A stretch of 21,390 nucleotides of DNA, taken from the IMG/VR virus record IMGVR_UViG_3300020182_000208, positions 1 through 21,390 of that record; one strand, 5' to 3'. The translations under genes were made by a program, and so were the position numbers. Positions 13,982-20,495 of the stretch are shown here, one piece after another. Below the pieces are notes generated by a model. It searched no databases. It saw only the letters and a program-made list of their open reading frames with translations, and was not told the origin of the DNA. Position 1 is the first letter of the stretch. Each line of letters begins with the position of its first letter. The DNA is from a virus.

Positions 13982-13997
13982 TGCCCCCGAAGGGGCA
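13982..13997 (-). terminator. UUCG-capped hairpin between ejection and packaging genes
   Basis: On the minus strand TGCCCC-TTCG-GGGGCA forms a six-pair stem with a UUCG tetraloop, seven bases after the stop of the 1148-aa gene. No U tract follows (ATCTGTC), so it is probably a weak or partial terminator, or an mRNA 3'-end stabiliser or processing site. It resembles the hairpin after the ribonucleotide reductase gene. Confidence 0.55.
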
Positions 13998-14003
13998 CCT
14001 TAG

Positions 14004-17000
14004 TTATGCGGAAAGAATACCGGGAGCCATCATGGGCTCCTCCTCTTCCTCTGATCCAGCGGCAAGCAGTCCCATAGCGGATACCACAGCAAGTATGGTT
14101 GCGAATGGGTGGCCATAGAACTGGATTTGCTTATTGCCAGCTTTGGCAAACTCCTTTCGGATGAGTGCTGTTGTCTCTGGCATCACCTGTTTGGCTAAAG
14201 CTGGGTCAAACATATAGACCCACACGGGGTCTACTGCGAACTCAGCGAAGTTAAGTGTGTACTTTTGGTGAGCTTCAATATGTTCATTACCAGAATCTCT
14301 TACTACTTTTAATTGCGTAGGAGATGCTCCCATAGATTTCCACTCTGCAATATTTTGTTCAATTTCCTTAGTCATCCTCGCAAAGTCTCTAACCGCTCTG
14401 GTTTCTGAAGGTCTATCTTTTAAATATACCTCTATGTTCCACTGTAGGTTATTAACTTCGGCCACAATAGGGTGCGATCCATCAATACCCTTTTCACTAA
14501 GTATTGGAACTATGGCACTACCTACAAACGAACCTGTTGGATAACTCGCCCTATACTGCTTGGTTAAATTGTTTGTTGTAGACCCGTCACGGCCAGTTTG
14601 GGTTGACTCGCCGTCTAGAGGGCCTAGCGTCACGCCATGTGCAATTTCATGCAGCAGTGTTGTTAAGGCACCTATAGTTGTACGCTTTTTACCTTTAAAG
14701 CTACCCCCCGGTTTTATCGCAAAAATCATACCAGCAGCTCCCTTACCAAAGCCGGGTTGCTGACTAAAAGAGCCCCTCGTATTAGGGCCAAGTCTAGCAC
14801 CTCTTTCTTTAGCCAGCTTACGCATGGCGGTGCCGCTACTTGCTATATGGACGGTTTGTCCTAACAGCTTTGCAGCCTCAAGAGCCCCATCCCAATCTTT
14901 GATACCGTTTTCGTACTTTGAGCCCTTTTTACCAATCTCAATTATGTCATTGGCTTTAGGTTGGGCCTTCTTTACTTGCTTTGGAGTTGGGGGCTTGGGG
15001 GTTGGCTTAGGTTTTGCTGGAGTTGGTTCTGCGGGAGTTGGCTGAAGTACAGGCCCTGCGGGTGGGGCTGGTACTGGGTCCACTGGAGACGGTCCAGATG
15101 GCTCTGGATTTCCTGTTGGGTCACTGGGTTCTGGCTGACTAGGAGCATCTTTAGCTTTCTGCTGCTGCTTTACCCTCTCCATGTAGGGAGTAAGGTAGGT
15201 TTCTGCAAGTTTAGGCTTCATTAGATTGCTTGTGGCTCGACTAACGATAGCTTCCAGAGAAGCAACGGGGTCTTTGCCTAAGTTCAGCGCCATACTGTCG
15301 AAAGCATCACCTAAAGTGGTACGATCTTCAGCTAGAATGGACGTATCGTTGTCCATCTTGTCCCGAAGAGTTGCCAGATAGGCTTGGTTGCTGTTTTTAC
15401 CAAGCTGCCGTTCTATTGGGAGCTGTGGTTCAATAGGCTTTTGGCCCTTCTTTGGCTTCTTAGACTCAAAGTTGAGGTTCTTAGAGCGAATGAGAGAGGT
15501 CACATCGTTCAGAGGACTACCGTCCATGATGCTTTTGCCTGTAGCCAGTGATTGCTTGTAAGCACGGATTGCACGTTTACGTTCCGCAGTAGTGTTTGGG
15601 TTTGCCAACACATCATCAAGTGCCTTCATAATGTCAGCATCAAGTTCAGCTACTGTACGTCCCTGTGGTCCATAAGTCTCAATGATGGCAGAATGAACTG
15701 TACCGCGAGGTGAGTTGGGAAGTGGAGGTTCGCCATTAGCATACTGCTGTGCATTCCGCTTTGCCTCTTCCTCATCAAAAAACTGCTTCTTCTGGCCCTC
15801 TTCAAACTTACGGCGTTCACCATCAGCTCTCTGCTGTGCCTCCTCAGCCTTCCGTCTTTCGACTTCTGGGTCTGGTTGATTGCGAAGTGCAGCTTCCGCA
15901 GCTCTACGATCTTTAGCCTCTTGGACTAAATCACGAGCTGCTGGGGCTGTGGGATCAGCAAGACCATCGCCTTTGCGGTTCTTCTTGACGAAACGGTTGA
16001 CCTTGGACCTGCGTCCAGTGACTGCATCTATGGCACGACCACCAACCACGAGGGGTATCTGTGCGGCTAATGACTGGCCACCAGTTGCTAAGGCTGCACC
16101 AGTGTTGATGTTACCTGCTACCATACCAGCTGGGTTGTAAGCTCTACCAATAGAGGGCAGTGGGTTAAACATATCGGTGAACTTAGACACACCGCCTTTG
16201 AGGCCACCCGCATATACCTCGGTGAGGACGTTGGAGCGGCGGAAGGTGTTAAGGAGTGCCTGACCTTCTCTCGTGTTACCAAAGCGATCTTGCATGAAGT
16301 CGAAGTTTTCTTTGGTTACTGTAGTGCCAACTTTGCCTTTGGATTGACGTATTGCCTGCTTAAAGAAAGCCTTGTCCTCTGGACTTAGCGCCTTGATCTG
16401 GCCCTTCTCTGTCAAAGAGATTACCTGAGCTTCTAAGTCTTTCAGCAAGACATCACGGGCACCTTCAAGAGTTTGGTTGGCACCTTTCTTGGAGCTGGAG
16501 TCAATGTCCTTGAGGTTGTAGCCGTTCTCATCAGCAACACGCTGCAACAATGCAGACACATCAGATGCAGCTTGGGTTGTCTCAGGGTCTAGGTCTTCTT
16601 TTGGCTTAAATACTTTGTCACCAGCGCTGTTCACTGTAGTCAGTGCAACATTAACACCACCAGCAGCTGTACCACCTAAGATGGCTTCACCAGCTACTTG
16701 TCGTGGGTCAATCTGTAGACCTACATCAGTGCCTGCTGTTGAACCTGTCTGTTCTACGGCACTCTGTGCGCCCTCTGTAGCAGTCTCAGCGGCAGTTCTC
16801 TTGACGATGCCGCCCCTGCCGGGGATCAGTGCGTTTAAGGCACCAGATGCCGCTGCCGTTTGTGCAGCAGCTATGAAGTCATCTTTGTTTGGCTTGTCGC
16901 GTCCGTTGTTCCGTGCGCGTTCATTGGCAATAGGGCCAAGGAGCTGCACTGCCTCGAAGGCAAAGGGACCAGCGAATGCACCAACAACACCACCAGCAGG

Positions 17001-17450
17001 GCCAGCAACAGCTGTACCAGCAGCAGCACCGCCTGCCCGTGTAATCAAAGAGCCAGCATACTGACCAATCTGCTCTACAGCAGCCTTCGGGAGGTATCTG
17101 TAGGCAAAAGAGCCATCTTCATCGCCTTCGATAAACTTAGCGGAAGCTGACTCATAGTTCTCAGGTGCAGCCGTGAGGTTGCTGAGAGTTTCTGCTGTGC
17201 CATCTGCACCAACAGCTCTTGCTGTCTCTGCCATGTTCTCCAGTGGCTGATCGATGCCAGAGCGGAAGGCAGCACCAAAGCCCTGCATGGGGCCGTTGGT
17301 ATCTGGTGCAGCTTCTTGTGGTGTAGGTTCTGTCTGTTGCTGAGAGCCTTGTAGCTTTCGGATTTCGTTAGCCAACAACTGAGCTGATTGTGTGTCACCA
17401 GCCTTATCTGCGGCCAGTAGCGCACGGCTTAACTGTTCGATGTCAGCCAT
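14004..17450 (-). CDS. Large internal virion/ejection protein with C-terminal HEXXH metalloprotease domain, 1148 aa
   Basis: By size, place and composition this is a podoviral internal protein ejected with the DNA. Its start, LSRALLAADKAGDTQSAQLL, is a motif I recall from other phage internal proteins. Two Gly/Ala-rich hydrophobic stretches (about residues 137-170 and 430-475) could insert into the host membrane, and a charged coiled coil spans about 507-574. A Pro-rich linker (about 767-835) precedes a separate C-terminal domain with HEIAH (934-938) in the context LLHEIAHGVTLGPL: the zinc site of a metallopeptidase, with His934, Glu935 and His938; a downstream Glu may be the third ligand. 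A hydrophobic then acidic tail (ATILAVVSAMGLLAAGSEEE) ends the protein. The start has a GAGAGG box. The target could be peptidoglycan peptides or proteins. Confidence 0.83.
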   Translation of the reverse strand: MADIEQLSRALLAADKAGDTQSAQLLANEIRKLQGSQQQTEPTPQEAAPDTNGPMQGFGAAFRSGIDQPLENMAETARAVGADGTAETLSNLTAAPENYESASAKFIEGDEDGSFAYRYLPKAAVEQIGQYAGSLITRAGGAAAGTAVAGPAGGVVGAFAGPFAFEAVQLLGPIANERARNNGRDKPNKDDFIAAAQTAAASGALNALIPGRGGIVKRTAAETATEGAQSAVEQTGSTAGTDVGLQIDPRQVAGEAILGGTAAGGVNVALTTVNSAGDKVFKPKEDLDPETTQAASDVSALLQRVADENGYNLKDIDSSSKKGANQTLEGARDVLLKDLEAQVISLTEKGQIKALSPEDKAFFKQAIRQSKGKVGTTVTKENFDFMQDRFGNTREGQALLNTFRRSNVLTEVYAGGLKGGVSKFTDMFNPLPSIGRAYNPAGMVAGNINTGAALATGGQSLAAQIPLVVGGRAIDAVTGRRSKVNRFVKKNRKGDGLADPTAPAARDLVQEAKDRRAAEAALRNQPDPEVERRKAEEAQQRADGERRKFEEGQKKQFFDEEEAKRNAQQYANGEPPLPNSPRGTVHSAIIETYGPQGRTVAELDADIMKALDDVLANPNTTAERKRAIRAYKQSLATGKSIMDGSPLNDVTSLIRSKNLNFESKKPKKGQKPIEPQLPIERQLGKNSNQAYLATLRDKMDNDTSILAEDRTTLGDAFDSMALNLGKDPVASLEAIVSRATSNLMKPKLAETYLTPYMERVKQQQKAKDAPSQPEPSDPTGNPEPSGPSPVDPVPAPPAGPVLQPTPAEPTPAKPKPTPKPPTPKQVKKAQPKANDIIEIGKKGSKYENGIKDWDGALEAAKLLGQTVHIASSGTAMRKLAKERGARLGPNTRGSFSQQPGFGKGAAGMIFAIKPGGSFKGKKRTTIGALTTLLHEIAHGVTLGPLDGESTQTGRDGSTTNNLTKQYRASYPTGSFVGSAIVPILSEKGIDGSHPIVAEVNNLQWNIEVYLKDRPSETRAVRDFARMTKEIEQNIAEWKSMGASPTQLKVVRDSGNEHIEAHQKYTLNFAEFAVDPVWVYMFDPALAKQVMPETTALIRKEFAKAGNKQIQFYGHPFATILAVVSAMGLLAAGSEEEEEPMMAPGILSA

Positions 17451-17468: not shown

Positions 17469-19454
17469 CTAATTGTACTTGTCTAAAACTGCTTGGACAT
17501 CAGCACTTGGTGTGTAGGTTCCAGAAGATGTGTTGAACTCATTGGACCTTTGTCCAGCTGGCAACTCTTCGCCACCGCTTAGGCGGTTCTGAACTCTTTG
17601 TAGTGCAGCCATCCGCTCATTGATCCAGTCTTCCCATACTTGCTCATCTTGTAAGTTGGTTGGGGCTGGTGACAGAAACAACTTCATCTCCGCGTTTGAG
17701 ATTGCACCTTTGGTTTCGGCAACACGAAGTAGAGCATCATCAACACGCAACCTACTTAGGATCATTCTGCGGTTAGCATCGGGATCACCAGTAAAGTTGT
17801 CGAAGATGCCTTTGAATATACCACCGATGCCAGTCAGGTTGCCACCAGACGCACGGCTTTCAGCAATGGCATCAAGGCCACGTTGCATACCATACATAGC
17901 GTCATTTACAGCCTGAAGTGATGCTGCATTCTTAGCTGCGGCTTTGCTATCGGCTTTGCTGCCAGTACCTCTAGCCCTAAGCTCTGCAAGGCGTGTTGCC
18001 TCTGCTTGTTTAGCGGCTGCAACTTCCGCAGCTCGGTTGGCATCCTGTATGGAACCATACTCACGGCCAGCTGCACCCAGACCATCGCCTTGGAGAGCGC
18101 CAGAGTACCCAGCGGCACCAATTCGTATCAAGGCCTCACCGCGTGGTATCATGCCTAGAGCGGAACCACGGGCATTGGCTGTCATGTTACCTGCGCCTCT
18201 TGAGAGGGCGGGTGCACGAGTGGCAGTTGTACTTGATGTTGTACTTAATGCTGGTGTCTGCGCTGCTGTATTTGCGGTGGTAGTGGTAGGGGCTGGAGTG
18301 GTTGTGTTGATGAGCACTGGGTTACTGTAGTCACTCGCACCATTCATACCGGGCTCATTCCCAGCTAGTATGGGTGTAGGAGGAGTTGGTGCTGTGTAAG
18401 GTCCAAGGCCACTTGGCATTCCTGAGTTGTCTACTGGTACGGGGGGTGGGCGAGTGTAGTCGCTTGCACCGTTCATACCGGGCTCTTGGCCGGGAAGCTG
18501 TACACCAAGACTTTGGGCAGTCACGCCATTAACTGGGTTTTCTACCGAAAGTGTGCGGCCATTAACATCAGCAACACGAGCATCACGAGCTGCATTACCA
18601 GAGGCAAGTGCGGCCTCTGCCGCTGCTTGACGAGCCTGAATACTAGCCATCATCTCAGGTGGCAATGTACCAGAAGATAGTAGTCCTGTCGTGCTTGCAA
18701 GCTCCGCTTCTGCCGCTCTTACATCTGGAGCAACTGCTGCTGCCTGTGCTTGCTGGCCACGCAGTTGCTCTAAGTATGCATTAGCTGCTGCATCATACTG
18801 TGGTGTGCTTGGGTTACTTTCGACACTGCCGCCTAGCTCAACCAGTTGCTGCTGCATTTGCTTGAGAATCTCAAGATCCTCGGGAGTGTCAATAGAGGCT
18901 GCATGACGAGCAATGCGCTTCTCTAGTAACTGGCGCTCACCAATGTTCTCTTTGGCAAGGTTTTGCTCACTGCGCGTGAGTACACCGGGCTCTTCGCCTG
19001 CACGAGATGCTGGGTCTACGGCTGTCTGAAGGACTGGTGCCTGTGCGGCTGGCTGTGGCTGTAGCTCAGGTTCAACACCCAGAAGTATCTTTCTGGAGTT
19101 CTCCAGCATTATAGGACTTAGGCTATCTAAATATTCTTGCGGAGTTTTGTTTTGGCTCTGCGAAATACTAACGAAAGTAGGATGTGTGAGTAGAGGGTCT
19201 TGTGAAGGCTCTACAGCAGCTCCAGTGGAGAGGACAGGCATAGCTACCTCTGGGAGAGGGCCAGCGAGAGTTCTGTCGATAAAATTGTTCCTGTTCTGCC
19301 TTGCAATTTGCTCAGGACGAAGTTTGCTATACACACGAATTTGGTCTTCAACGTCTGCTCTATCTGCGGCACTTAATGTTTTTAGATACTCATTCAGAGT
19401 TAAACCAGAGGCGTCTACTGAATTTTGAATGCTATTAGGGATTAAAAGGTCCAT
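17469..19454 (-). CDS. Internal virion/ejection protein, 661 aa, low-complexity centre
   Basis: A second large structural protein of the ejection set. The N-terminal 60 residues (SVDASGLTLNEYLKTLSAAD) form a small helical domain; a related LSPIMLENSRKILLG segment follows near residue 115. The centre (about 130-480) is Ala/Gln/Thr/Pro-rich and poorly ordered, with the exact ten-residue repeat EPGMNGASDY at 324-333 and 367-376. The C-terminus (about 530-630: GIGGIFKGIFDNFTGD, LRVDDALLRVAETKGAISNA, WEDWINERMAALQRVQNRL) is folded and helical, and resembles from memory the C-terminal part of internal proteins of marine podoviruses. A GGAGGAGG box precedes the ATG. No lysozyme or transglycosylase motif is seen. 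Exact role unknown. Confidence 0.78.
   Translation of the reverse strand: MDLLIPNSIQNSVDASGLTLNEYLKTLSAADRADVEDQIRVYSKLRPEQIARQNRNNFIDRTLAGPLPEVAMPVLSTGAAVEPSQDPLLTHPTFVSISQSQNKTPQEYLDSLSPIMLENSRKILLGVEPELQPQPAAQAPVLQTAVDPASRAGEEPGVLTRSEQNLAKENIGERQLLEKRIARHAASIDTPEDLEILKQMQQQLVELGGSVESNPSTPQYDAAANAYLEQLRGQQAQAAAVAPDVRAAEAELASTTGLLSSGTLPPEMMASIQARQAAAEAALASGNAARDARVADVNGRTLSVENPVNGVTAQSLGVQLPGQEPGMNGASDYTRPPPVPVDNSGMPSGLGPYTAPTPPTPILAGNEPGMNGASDYSNPVLINTTTPAPTTTTANTAAQTPALSTTSSTTATRAPALSRGAGNMTANARGSALGMIPRGEALIRIGAAGYSGALQGDGLGAAGREYGSIQDANRAAEVAAAKQAEATRLAELRARGTGSKADSKAAAKNAASLQAVNDAMYGMQRGLDAIAESRASGGNLTGIGGIFKGIFDNFTGDPDANRRMILSRLRVDDALLRVAETKGAISNAEMKLFLSPAPTNLQDEQVWEDWINERMAALQRVQNRLSGGEELPAGQRSNEFNTSSGTYTPSADVQAVLDKYN
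18327..18356 (-). repeat. EPGMNGASDY peptide repeat, copy 2
   Basis: Thirty bases coding for residues 367-376 of the 661-aa protein. They match copy 1 at 27 of 30 positions, and all three differences are synonymous, so the peptide and not merely the DNA appears to be kept. Confidence 0.85.
18456..18485 (-). repeat. EPGMNGASDY peptide repeat, copy 1
   Basis: Thirty bases coding for residues 324-333 of the 661-aa protein. Both copies are preceded by Gly-x-x and followed by a Pro-rich spacer. Confidence 0.85.
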
Positions 19455-19469
19455 ATTATCTACCTCCTC

Positions 19470-20495
19470 CTAAAATGGGCGCATCTGTGGGCGCAGACTA
19501 GATGTAGGAGCCGCTGATGGCTGCTGCGGGAAGTATTGCTGCTGGAACCCAAAGCCACTCATGGCTCCCATCGCGGCAGCTTGGAATGGGTCAACCTTGT
19601 TTGCAGTAATGTTACCCACGCTGACTGGAGCCTGACCTAGAATACCAGACTGGTAGCCTTGGCGCTGCTGCATCTCAAAGTCACGCTGACGCTCAAAAGC
19701 AGCCTGTGCATCATTGAGTGCCGCTTGGTCATACCCTTGCAGGGAGTTGCCTGCGTTCATACCGAAGTTAGCACCCTGCCCCAATGTATTGAGACCCTGA
19801 GTGTAAGCGTTCTGTATGCCTTCGTTGGCCATGCCTGCACCTTGCAACGCAGAGCCTTGGTCAGAGAACTGTTGTGACTGTTGGGCAAGGCTGCGGTCAA
19901 TGAGCCTGTCTTGTACGTCTAAGGCGACATCAGCGCGGCGGTCATCAAAGGCGCGGTTGGCTACTGCTTCGGCTACACCAGCACGGCTGGAGTTCATGTT
20001 GCCTGAGTTACTTGCTGCTAGGTCGATGCCTGTCAGGGTGTTCTCTTGGAGGTTGCGGCGGTCATCACGCATCGCAGCGTCAACCAACGGGTTTGCGTTG
20101 GCACTGGCGTAGTCCATAGCAGTGTTTAAGCGGTCAGCCTGTGCGGCCTGCGCCATGTCTTGGTACTGGTTGAACAGAGAGTTGGCATTGGAACCAAAGC
20201 CAGACGTGTTGTTCATCATGTCATAGCCAGAGTTCTGGAGGTTTCCGCCTATGTTGCCCATGTTGGTGGCAGTGCCAGTCTGGAAGTCGTTAGGTCCAGC
20301 TAGGGTTTGACCAGTGTATGCACCAGTTGCAAGTACACCATCTAAAGCGGCAGAACTGCCAGATAGGTTAGCGTCCACATAAGGTTTGTATTGGTTAAAG
20401 CCAGCCATCTGGGCTGCTGTTGCTGCGTCTTGTGCTTTGGCTTGCTTGTTTGCGCCCATATAGCCCAAGGCACCGCCGATTATTGCGCCCCACAT
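19470..20495 (-). CDS. Internal virion/DNA ejection protein, 341 aa
   Basis: The N-terminus MWGAIIGGALGYMGANKQAK is a Gly-rich hydrophobic segment followed by a charged helix, the usual start of podoviral ejection proteins that form the conduit through the cell envelope. The rest is Ala/Gln/Asn-rich and helical, with the recognisable section RDDRRNLQENTLTGIDLAAS followed by GNMNSSRAGVAEAVANRAFD, a pattern I recall from many phage ejection or 'DNA injection' proteins. The C-terminus (about residues 300-341) is rich in Gln, Pro, Phe and Met and may be disordered. An AAGGA box precedes the ATG. It is the first of three consecutive ejection genes in order of leftward transcription. Confidence 0.85.
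   Translation of the reverse strand: MWGAIIGGALGYMGANKQAKAQDAATAAQMAGFNQYKPYVDANLSGSSAALDGVLATGAYTGQTLAGPNDFQTGTATNMGNIGGNLQNSGYDMMNNTSGFGSNANSLFNQYQDMAQAAQADRLNTAMDYASANANPLVDAAMRDDRRNLQENTLTGIDLAASNSGNMNSSRAGVAEAVANRAFDDRRADVALDVQDRLIDRSLAQQSQQFSDQGSALQGAGMANEGIQNAYTQGLNTLGQGANFGMNAGNSLQGYDQAALNDAQAAFERQRDFEMQQRQGYQSGILGQAPVSVGNITANKVDPFQAAAMGAMSGFGFQQQYFPQQPSAAPTSSLRPQMRPF

Follow-up and report, generated by a model that had tools for sequence, protein, structure and literature searches.

In the 21.4-kb IMG/VR virus fragment analyzed here (the window, 21,390 nucleotides in length), the largest predicted ejection protein, which is the third of its group, very probably carries a zinc metalloprotease domain, as indicated by residue conservation and a confident structural model. 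Comparison of related sequences suggests that the site past the ejection backbone is a cargo slot, in which related phages swap the protease domain for other versions, add further enzyme-like modules to it or have no such domain.

The predicted ejection protein and its genomic neighborhood

The minus strand of the window carries the late region of a podovirus, an uncultured, short-tailed and apparently marine phage. Distant relatives of its terminase and portal belong to phages of Roseobacter, Sulfitobacter and Methylophilales, which suggests hosts of this kind. The late region encodes tail or virion proteins, proteins of 341, 661 and 1148 aa, a small protein and a probable small terminase; it also encodes the large terminase, an SU10-type portal, a scaffold, an SU10-type capsid protein, an adaptor-like protein, tail-fibre-like proteins and a GH108 endolysin. 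The 1148-aa protein is the product of ORF 14004-17450 (minus strand), read as in the preliminary description of this DNA, and its gene is located between the ejection-type genes and those for the small terminase, terminase and portal. The features discussed below are as follows.

19470..20495, minus strand: first predicted ejection protein, 341 aa (phrog_4287, 'DNA ejection protein', E 5.1e-7)
17469..19454, minus strand: second predicted ejection protein, 661 aa (position; counterparts in relatives G006 and G001)
15144..17450, minus strand: backbone of the predicted third ejection protein, residues 1-769
14955..15143, minus strand: proline-rich linker, residues 770-832, with 24 Pro among 63 residues (composition)
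14121..14954, minus strand: zincin-like metalloprotease domain, residues 833-1110 (conservation, AlphaFold model, fold matches)
14637..14651, minus strand: HEIAH, residues 934-938; two predicted zinc-ligand His and the predicted catalytic-base Glu on one helix
14259..14261, minus strand: invariant Tyr1064, 6 residues ahead of Glu1070; may stabilize the transition state, like the corresponding Tyr of the PPEPs
14241..14243, minus strand: invariant Glu1070 in FAEFAVDP; predicted third zinc ligand, on a second helix
14007..14120, minus strand: C-terminal tail, with a hydrophobic helix (residues ~1111-1134), an acidic stretch and the end GILSA

The 1148-aa protein can be considered the third predicted ejection protein because its gene adjoins the 341-aa and 661-aa genes with their matches to ejection-type PHROGs families. 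For the 661-aa gene, the matches come from the counterparts in G006 and G001, both of which hit phrog_24864, with the G006 protein additionally matching phrog_2534 ('released from the phage upon host infection', E 4.6e-9); profile scans of the window's own 661-aa protein against Pfam and PHROGs gave no match. The backbone includes a hydrophobic, Gly/Ala-rich stretch (residues ~130-190) and ends with the conserved motif YLxPYxxRVxxQQ. Like the T7 gp16 and SU10 gp20-type proteins, the 1148-aa protein is the largest product of a podovirus ejection-gene group, is modular and has hydrophobic segments; however, those proteins carry a transglycosylase or no enzyme, whereas the predicted enzyme here is a protease, and there is no sequence match between them. 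Of the earlier proposal of a modular zinc protease on an ejection protein, the linker and the modularity are borne out and the protease domain is very probable given its conservation, model and fold, with ejection itself suggested by gene position and neighbors.

At the 3' end of the 1148-aa gene, two terminator-like hairpins, one per strand, were found at 13982-14040 of the window (0.2 in shuffles). Several protease-bearing relatives retain the inverted repeat that follows the stop codon; it has disappeared from the protease-less relatives shown.

Conservation and predicted fold of the protease domain

To collect homologs, the whole protein, its domain and its backbone were each used as queries against 2.9 million viral contigs, and more than 200 loci were fetched. 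Among the 97 unique copies of the domain, the automatic pattern failed in three, one of which (L228) has HExxH, Tyr and Glu when inspected by eye, whereas the other two run off contig ends. In all 95 complete domains, very divergent members included, the HExxH motif, with both His and the Glu, the Tyr and the distal Glu are invariant, and this triplet persists even in members with family-profile scores of only ~40-50 bits. The Glu follows HExxH at a distance of 101 to 142 residues, and the Tyr is always at Glu-6. The chance expectation of an HExxH motif in a protein of such composition is ~0.004. The C-terminal tail is conserved together with the protease and is missing in the protease-less homologs. 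In one contig (3300046167_000184; L037 and L093), the gene copy is split over several frames, due to either a sequencing error or gene decay, and its protease part is intact.

An AlphaFold2 model of residues 833-1116, built from a 47-sequence alignment, was obtained with high confidence (pLDDT 95.8, pTM 0.93) and replaced a first model from 14 sequences (pLDDT 61) that had yielded meaningless fold matches. In the model, the HExxH motif lies on a helix (model residues 93-110), and the invariant Glu1070 (E238 of the model) lies on a second helix (236-249) C-terminal to it. The best whole-domain neighbors in the PDB are zinc proteases of the Pro-Pro endopeptidase (PPEP) and lethal-factor types. 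Upon realignment of the PDB chains by VIA, PPEP-1, PPEP-2 and PPEP-3 gave Z of 6.3-7.1 and rmsd of 3.3-3.9 over 135-143 residues, and lethal-factor-fold domains gave Z of 6.4-6.9 across 145-154 residues; Z values of ~7 are middling and, being below 8, not decisive alone. The top VIA entries, 5uh5 and 5uh7 (an RNA polymerase insert), cover a single helical stretch of ~67 residues at rmsd ~6 and were set aside. A Foldseek search with the model produced no PDB match with E < 0.5. The sole strong match in the viral structure library BFVD is A0A516M1K3_2 (E 8.3e-10, TM 0.61, 22% identity), a segment of a large viral protein that has no name.

The whole-domain fold match gains weight because PPEP-3 shares the order of the key residues, with HExxH followed by the catalytic Tyr190 and then by the ligand Glu197 (PMC12828418). 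The PPEPs are secreted bacterial enzymes of ~200 residues without sequence match to the phage domain, and differ from it in the distance between HExxH and the Glu (~39 residues, compared to ~100-140 in the phage domain) and in the position of the Tyr (Glu-7 rather than Glu-6). Among the relatives of anthrax lethal factor (M34, ATLF), the PDB neighbors include Certhrax and lethal- and edema-factor domains, with mainly the binding domains of these toxins matched rather than the lethal-factor catalytic domain; there is no sequence-model match to this type, and the carrier, host and insert differ.

At the sequence level, for the full 1148-aa protein, Pfam yielded no match at E up to 1, NCBIfam yielded no protease match above cut-off, and the PHROGs and PADLOC scans returned nothing useful; pdsO, daptide_HExxH and Reprolysin_5 matched weakly, each under its own cut-off. 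In tblastn searches of 50,697 cultured phage records, the whole protein had no match, and of two domain alleles, one had chance matches only (E ~6-9) and the other none. When the alignment of the domain was run against 84,980 bacterial and archaeal genomes, no relative was detected, and PDB sequence searches with domain profiles found none.

The preliminary description regarded a proteolytic domain as less familiar on an ejected protein, a view that needs some correction: zincin-like metallopeptidases are the commonest domain of the polyvalent proteins of phages and plasmids, and the RNA polymerase that phage N4 ejects (vRNAP) bears one (Iyer et al. 2017, PMC5512222), with an HExxH motif in its C-terminal domain according to a structural preprint (PMC12633501). 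The polyvalent-protein zincins, for which 12 MPTase clades have been defined, show a profile relation to the lethal-factor endopeptidase, and their carriers also contain ADP-ribosyltransferases (ARTs) and FtsK-type winged helix-turn-helix (wHTH) domains (PMC5512222). Like the MPTases of N4 vRNAP and P1 DdrB, the domain described here has HExxH and a Glu on a second helix separated by a variable insert, and is carried by a large predicted virion protein, in some members beside ART, FtsK-type wHTH and other modules; unlike them, it is attached to a different ejection backbone, it is always the last module, relatives with an empty slot exist, and the window protein matches no Pfam, NCBIfam or PHROGs model above cut-off. 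Because its members carry FtsK-gamma and ART-PolyVal modules, the family appears to belong to the polyvalent proteins, which phages presumably inject along with their DNA, and would be a new family within this already described kind, carried by a different ejection backbone.

Loss, exchange and replacement of the cargo

Among 113 distinct C-termini, a sample that is not neutral inasmuch as part of it was recovered with the protease as the query, 22 are empty, 51 consist of the linker and the protease, 37 combine further modules with the protease and 3 hold other cargo only. The 22 empty homologs, the domain-less members that the preliminary description proposed to look for, end 1-17 residues past the backbone motif; in L008, L018, L024 and L028, the protein end continues into the beginning of the following gene, where the sequence is nearly that of the window. 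Two near-complete contigs with an 84-85% identical portal contain no copy anywhere. On the backbone tree, protease-bearing members occur throughout and protease-less ones are scattered among them, which requires at least 10 state changes.

A comparison with L003 illustrates the exchange of alleles. The two genes are 95-100% identical from ~16420 to 15220, 32-66% identical from 14980 to 14140 and 86-97% identical thereafter, which means that the linker's 3' half was swapped, along with the protease core, between conserved flanks. The N-terminal part of the protein has been exchanged as well: at 16540-17260 of the window, identity to L003 is 36-68%, with flanks at 98-100%.

The AT-rich stretch at 14250-14560 that was originally noted is real, with a GC content of 0.395 compared to 0.444 for the domain core and 0.513 for the backbone. 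It is no sign of recent gain, however, because the domain has the same GC dip relative to what lies upstream in 11 of the 12 relatives checked, the sole exception (L027) being a fragment with little upstream sequence. AT-richness is therefore a property of the domain and no mark of recent arrival. The family-wide occurrence of the domain, its great divergence, the repeated losses and the exchange of alleles likewise speak against recent gain; they fit an old module that has been repeatedly lost or exchanged, in line with its presence in the most divergent lineages, although the direction of the changes is not proven.

In all 37 multi-module forms, the protease is the last module. The modules between backbone and protease include FtsK_gamma in L094 (PF09397, E 5.4e-14) and ART-PolyVal in L228 (PF18760, E 9.5e-10, with a score of 39.8 bits where the cut-off is 31.2); most are nameless, and the window member holds the protease alone. 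The 1700-2000-aa relatives L094 (1264-6951), L103 (1597-6975), L080 (385-5592), L195 and L191 have two large unnamed modules in this position, one with 'GTNNKNASRQIDGIDEVL' and the other with 'NAIGWYDR...GPKIGxGFYxN', and neither has a match in Pfam. An early generalization, that the protease accompanies extra modules in every case, was ruled out by L241 (7390-7926), L242 (2429-2992) and L237 (1638-2579), where the slot holds other cargo and no protease. We take this cargo, on inspection by eye, to represent two kinds of ADP-ribosyltransferase-like domain; the cargo in L195 and L126 is presumably also of ART character, judging from the sequence pattern. Pfam did not confirm an ART in any of these five.

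Possible roles of the protease

The explanation we favor, to which we would assign about an even chance, is that the domain is an optional injected protease that cuts host proteins; processing of its own polypeptide is the main rival, and both could be true. We infer from synteny and from T7, N4 and SU10 that the backbone, packaged in the head with its two neighbors, would be ejected with the DNA and cross the envelope, so that the C-terminal domain could get to the host interior or the inner membrane, either tethered or held in the membrane by its tail. There, zinc would be bound by H934, H938 and E1070, with E935 acting as the base and Y1064 stabilizing the transition state for the cleavage of peptide bonds, as predicted from the invariant residues and the fold. 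The main target would most likely be a host protein, for example one involved in defense, the envelope or takeover of the cell. A host target is favored because the module is dispensable, its alleles are swapped as whole units and other cargo uses the same slot. Against this explanation count the middling fold matches and the lack of a match between the window protein and any protease sequence-family model. More tentatively, and with a probability well short of even, the slot could resemble the tips of polymorphic toxins in its logic, with the backbone delivering nothing, an allelic protease, or ART-type or other cargo at the start of infection, and with protease alleles tracking different host targets or defenses.

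The 51 of 113 homologs with only linker and protease and the invariable last position of the protease in the multi-module forms also fit processing, and the exchange of the linker along with the protease is what would be expected of a self-cleavage site. The domain could cut its own polypeptide, probably in the proline-rich linker or linkers, and so free the backbone and modules in the head or after injection; we consider this possible but rather less probable. All homologs with extra modules and a long tail have the protease, and the PPEPs cleave Pro-Pro bonds, two of which are present in the window linker. For the polyvalent zincins, Iyer et al. put forward both self-processing and an action on host proteins without deciding between them; P1 DdrB is processed ahead of packaging, whereas the vRNAP of N4 enters the virion uncleaved despite having such a domain (PMC5512222). 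However, the 51 linker-protease forms have little else to release, several lineages lack the module with nothing else changed, and three homologs have other cargo without the protease.

It is unlikely that the domain is an inactive or non-proteolytic zincin-like fold, such as a metal-stabilized anchor, a domain that binds DNA or membranes, or a different HExxH enzyme of the oxygenase kind. The HExxH motif does occur in non-proteases, an HExxH oxygenase (8s5f) is a weak entry among the fold matches, and in N4 vRNAP the C-terminal domain with the HExxH motif reportedly inhibits the polymerase (PMC12633501), but the predicted catalytic residues are all strictly conserved amid otherwise great divergence, and the best whole-domain neighbors are of the protease type. 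Least probable of all, and hardly to be expected, is an assembly protease that matures the capsid or other head proteins in place of a prohead protease: a scaffolding protein is encoded and no other protease was recognized among the window proteins scanned or ten proteins from a 42-kb relative, but capsid assembly does not need the protease, because relatives with nearly the same portal lack any copy, and an assembly enzyme would not be expected to have its alleles swapped or its cargo exchanged.

If the protease is injected, the protease-less sister phages with near-identical virion genes would be natural controls for asking what a proteolytic cargo does in the first minutes of infection, a question that also applies to the zincins of other polyvalent proteins, N4 vRNAP included. 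The family offers several alleles and a compact model (~280 residues) for activity and substrate screens.

Finally, a 42-kb relative (L204, G006:C1:1-20000) encodes an integrase, T7-type RNA polymerase, SSB and primase-helicase, a family A DNA polymerase, a 5'-3' exonuclease and a class II ribonucleotide reductase, so that it appears to combine an SU10-like head with T7-like replication.
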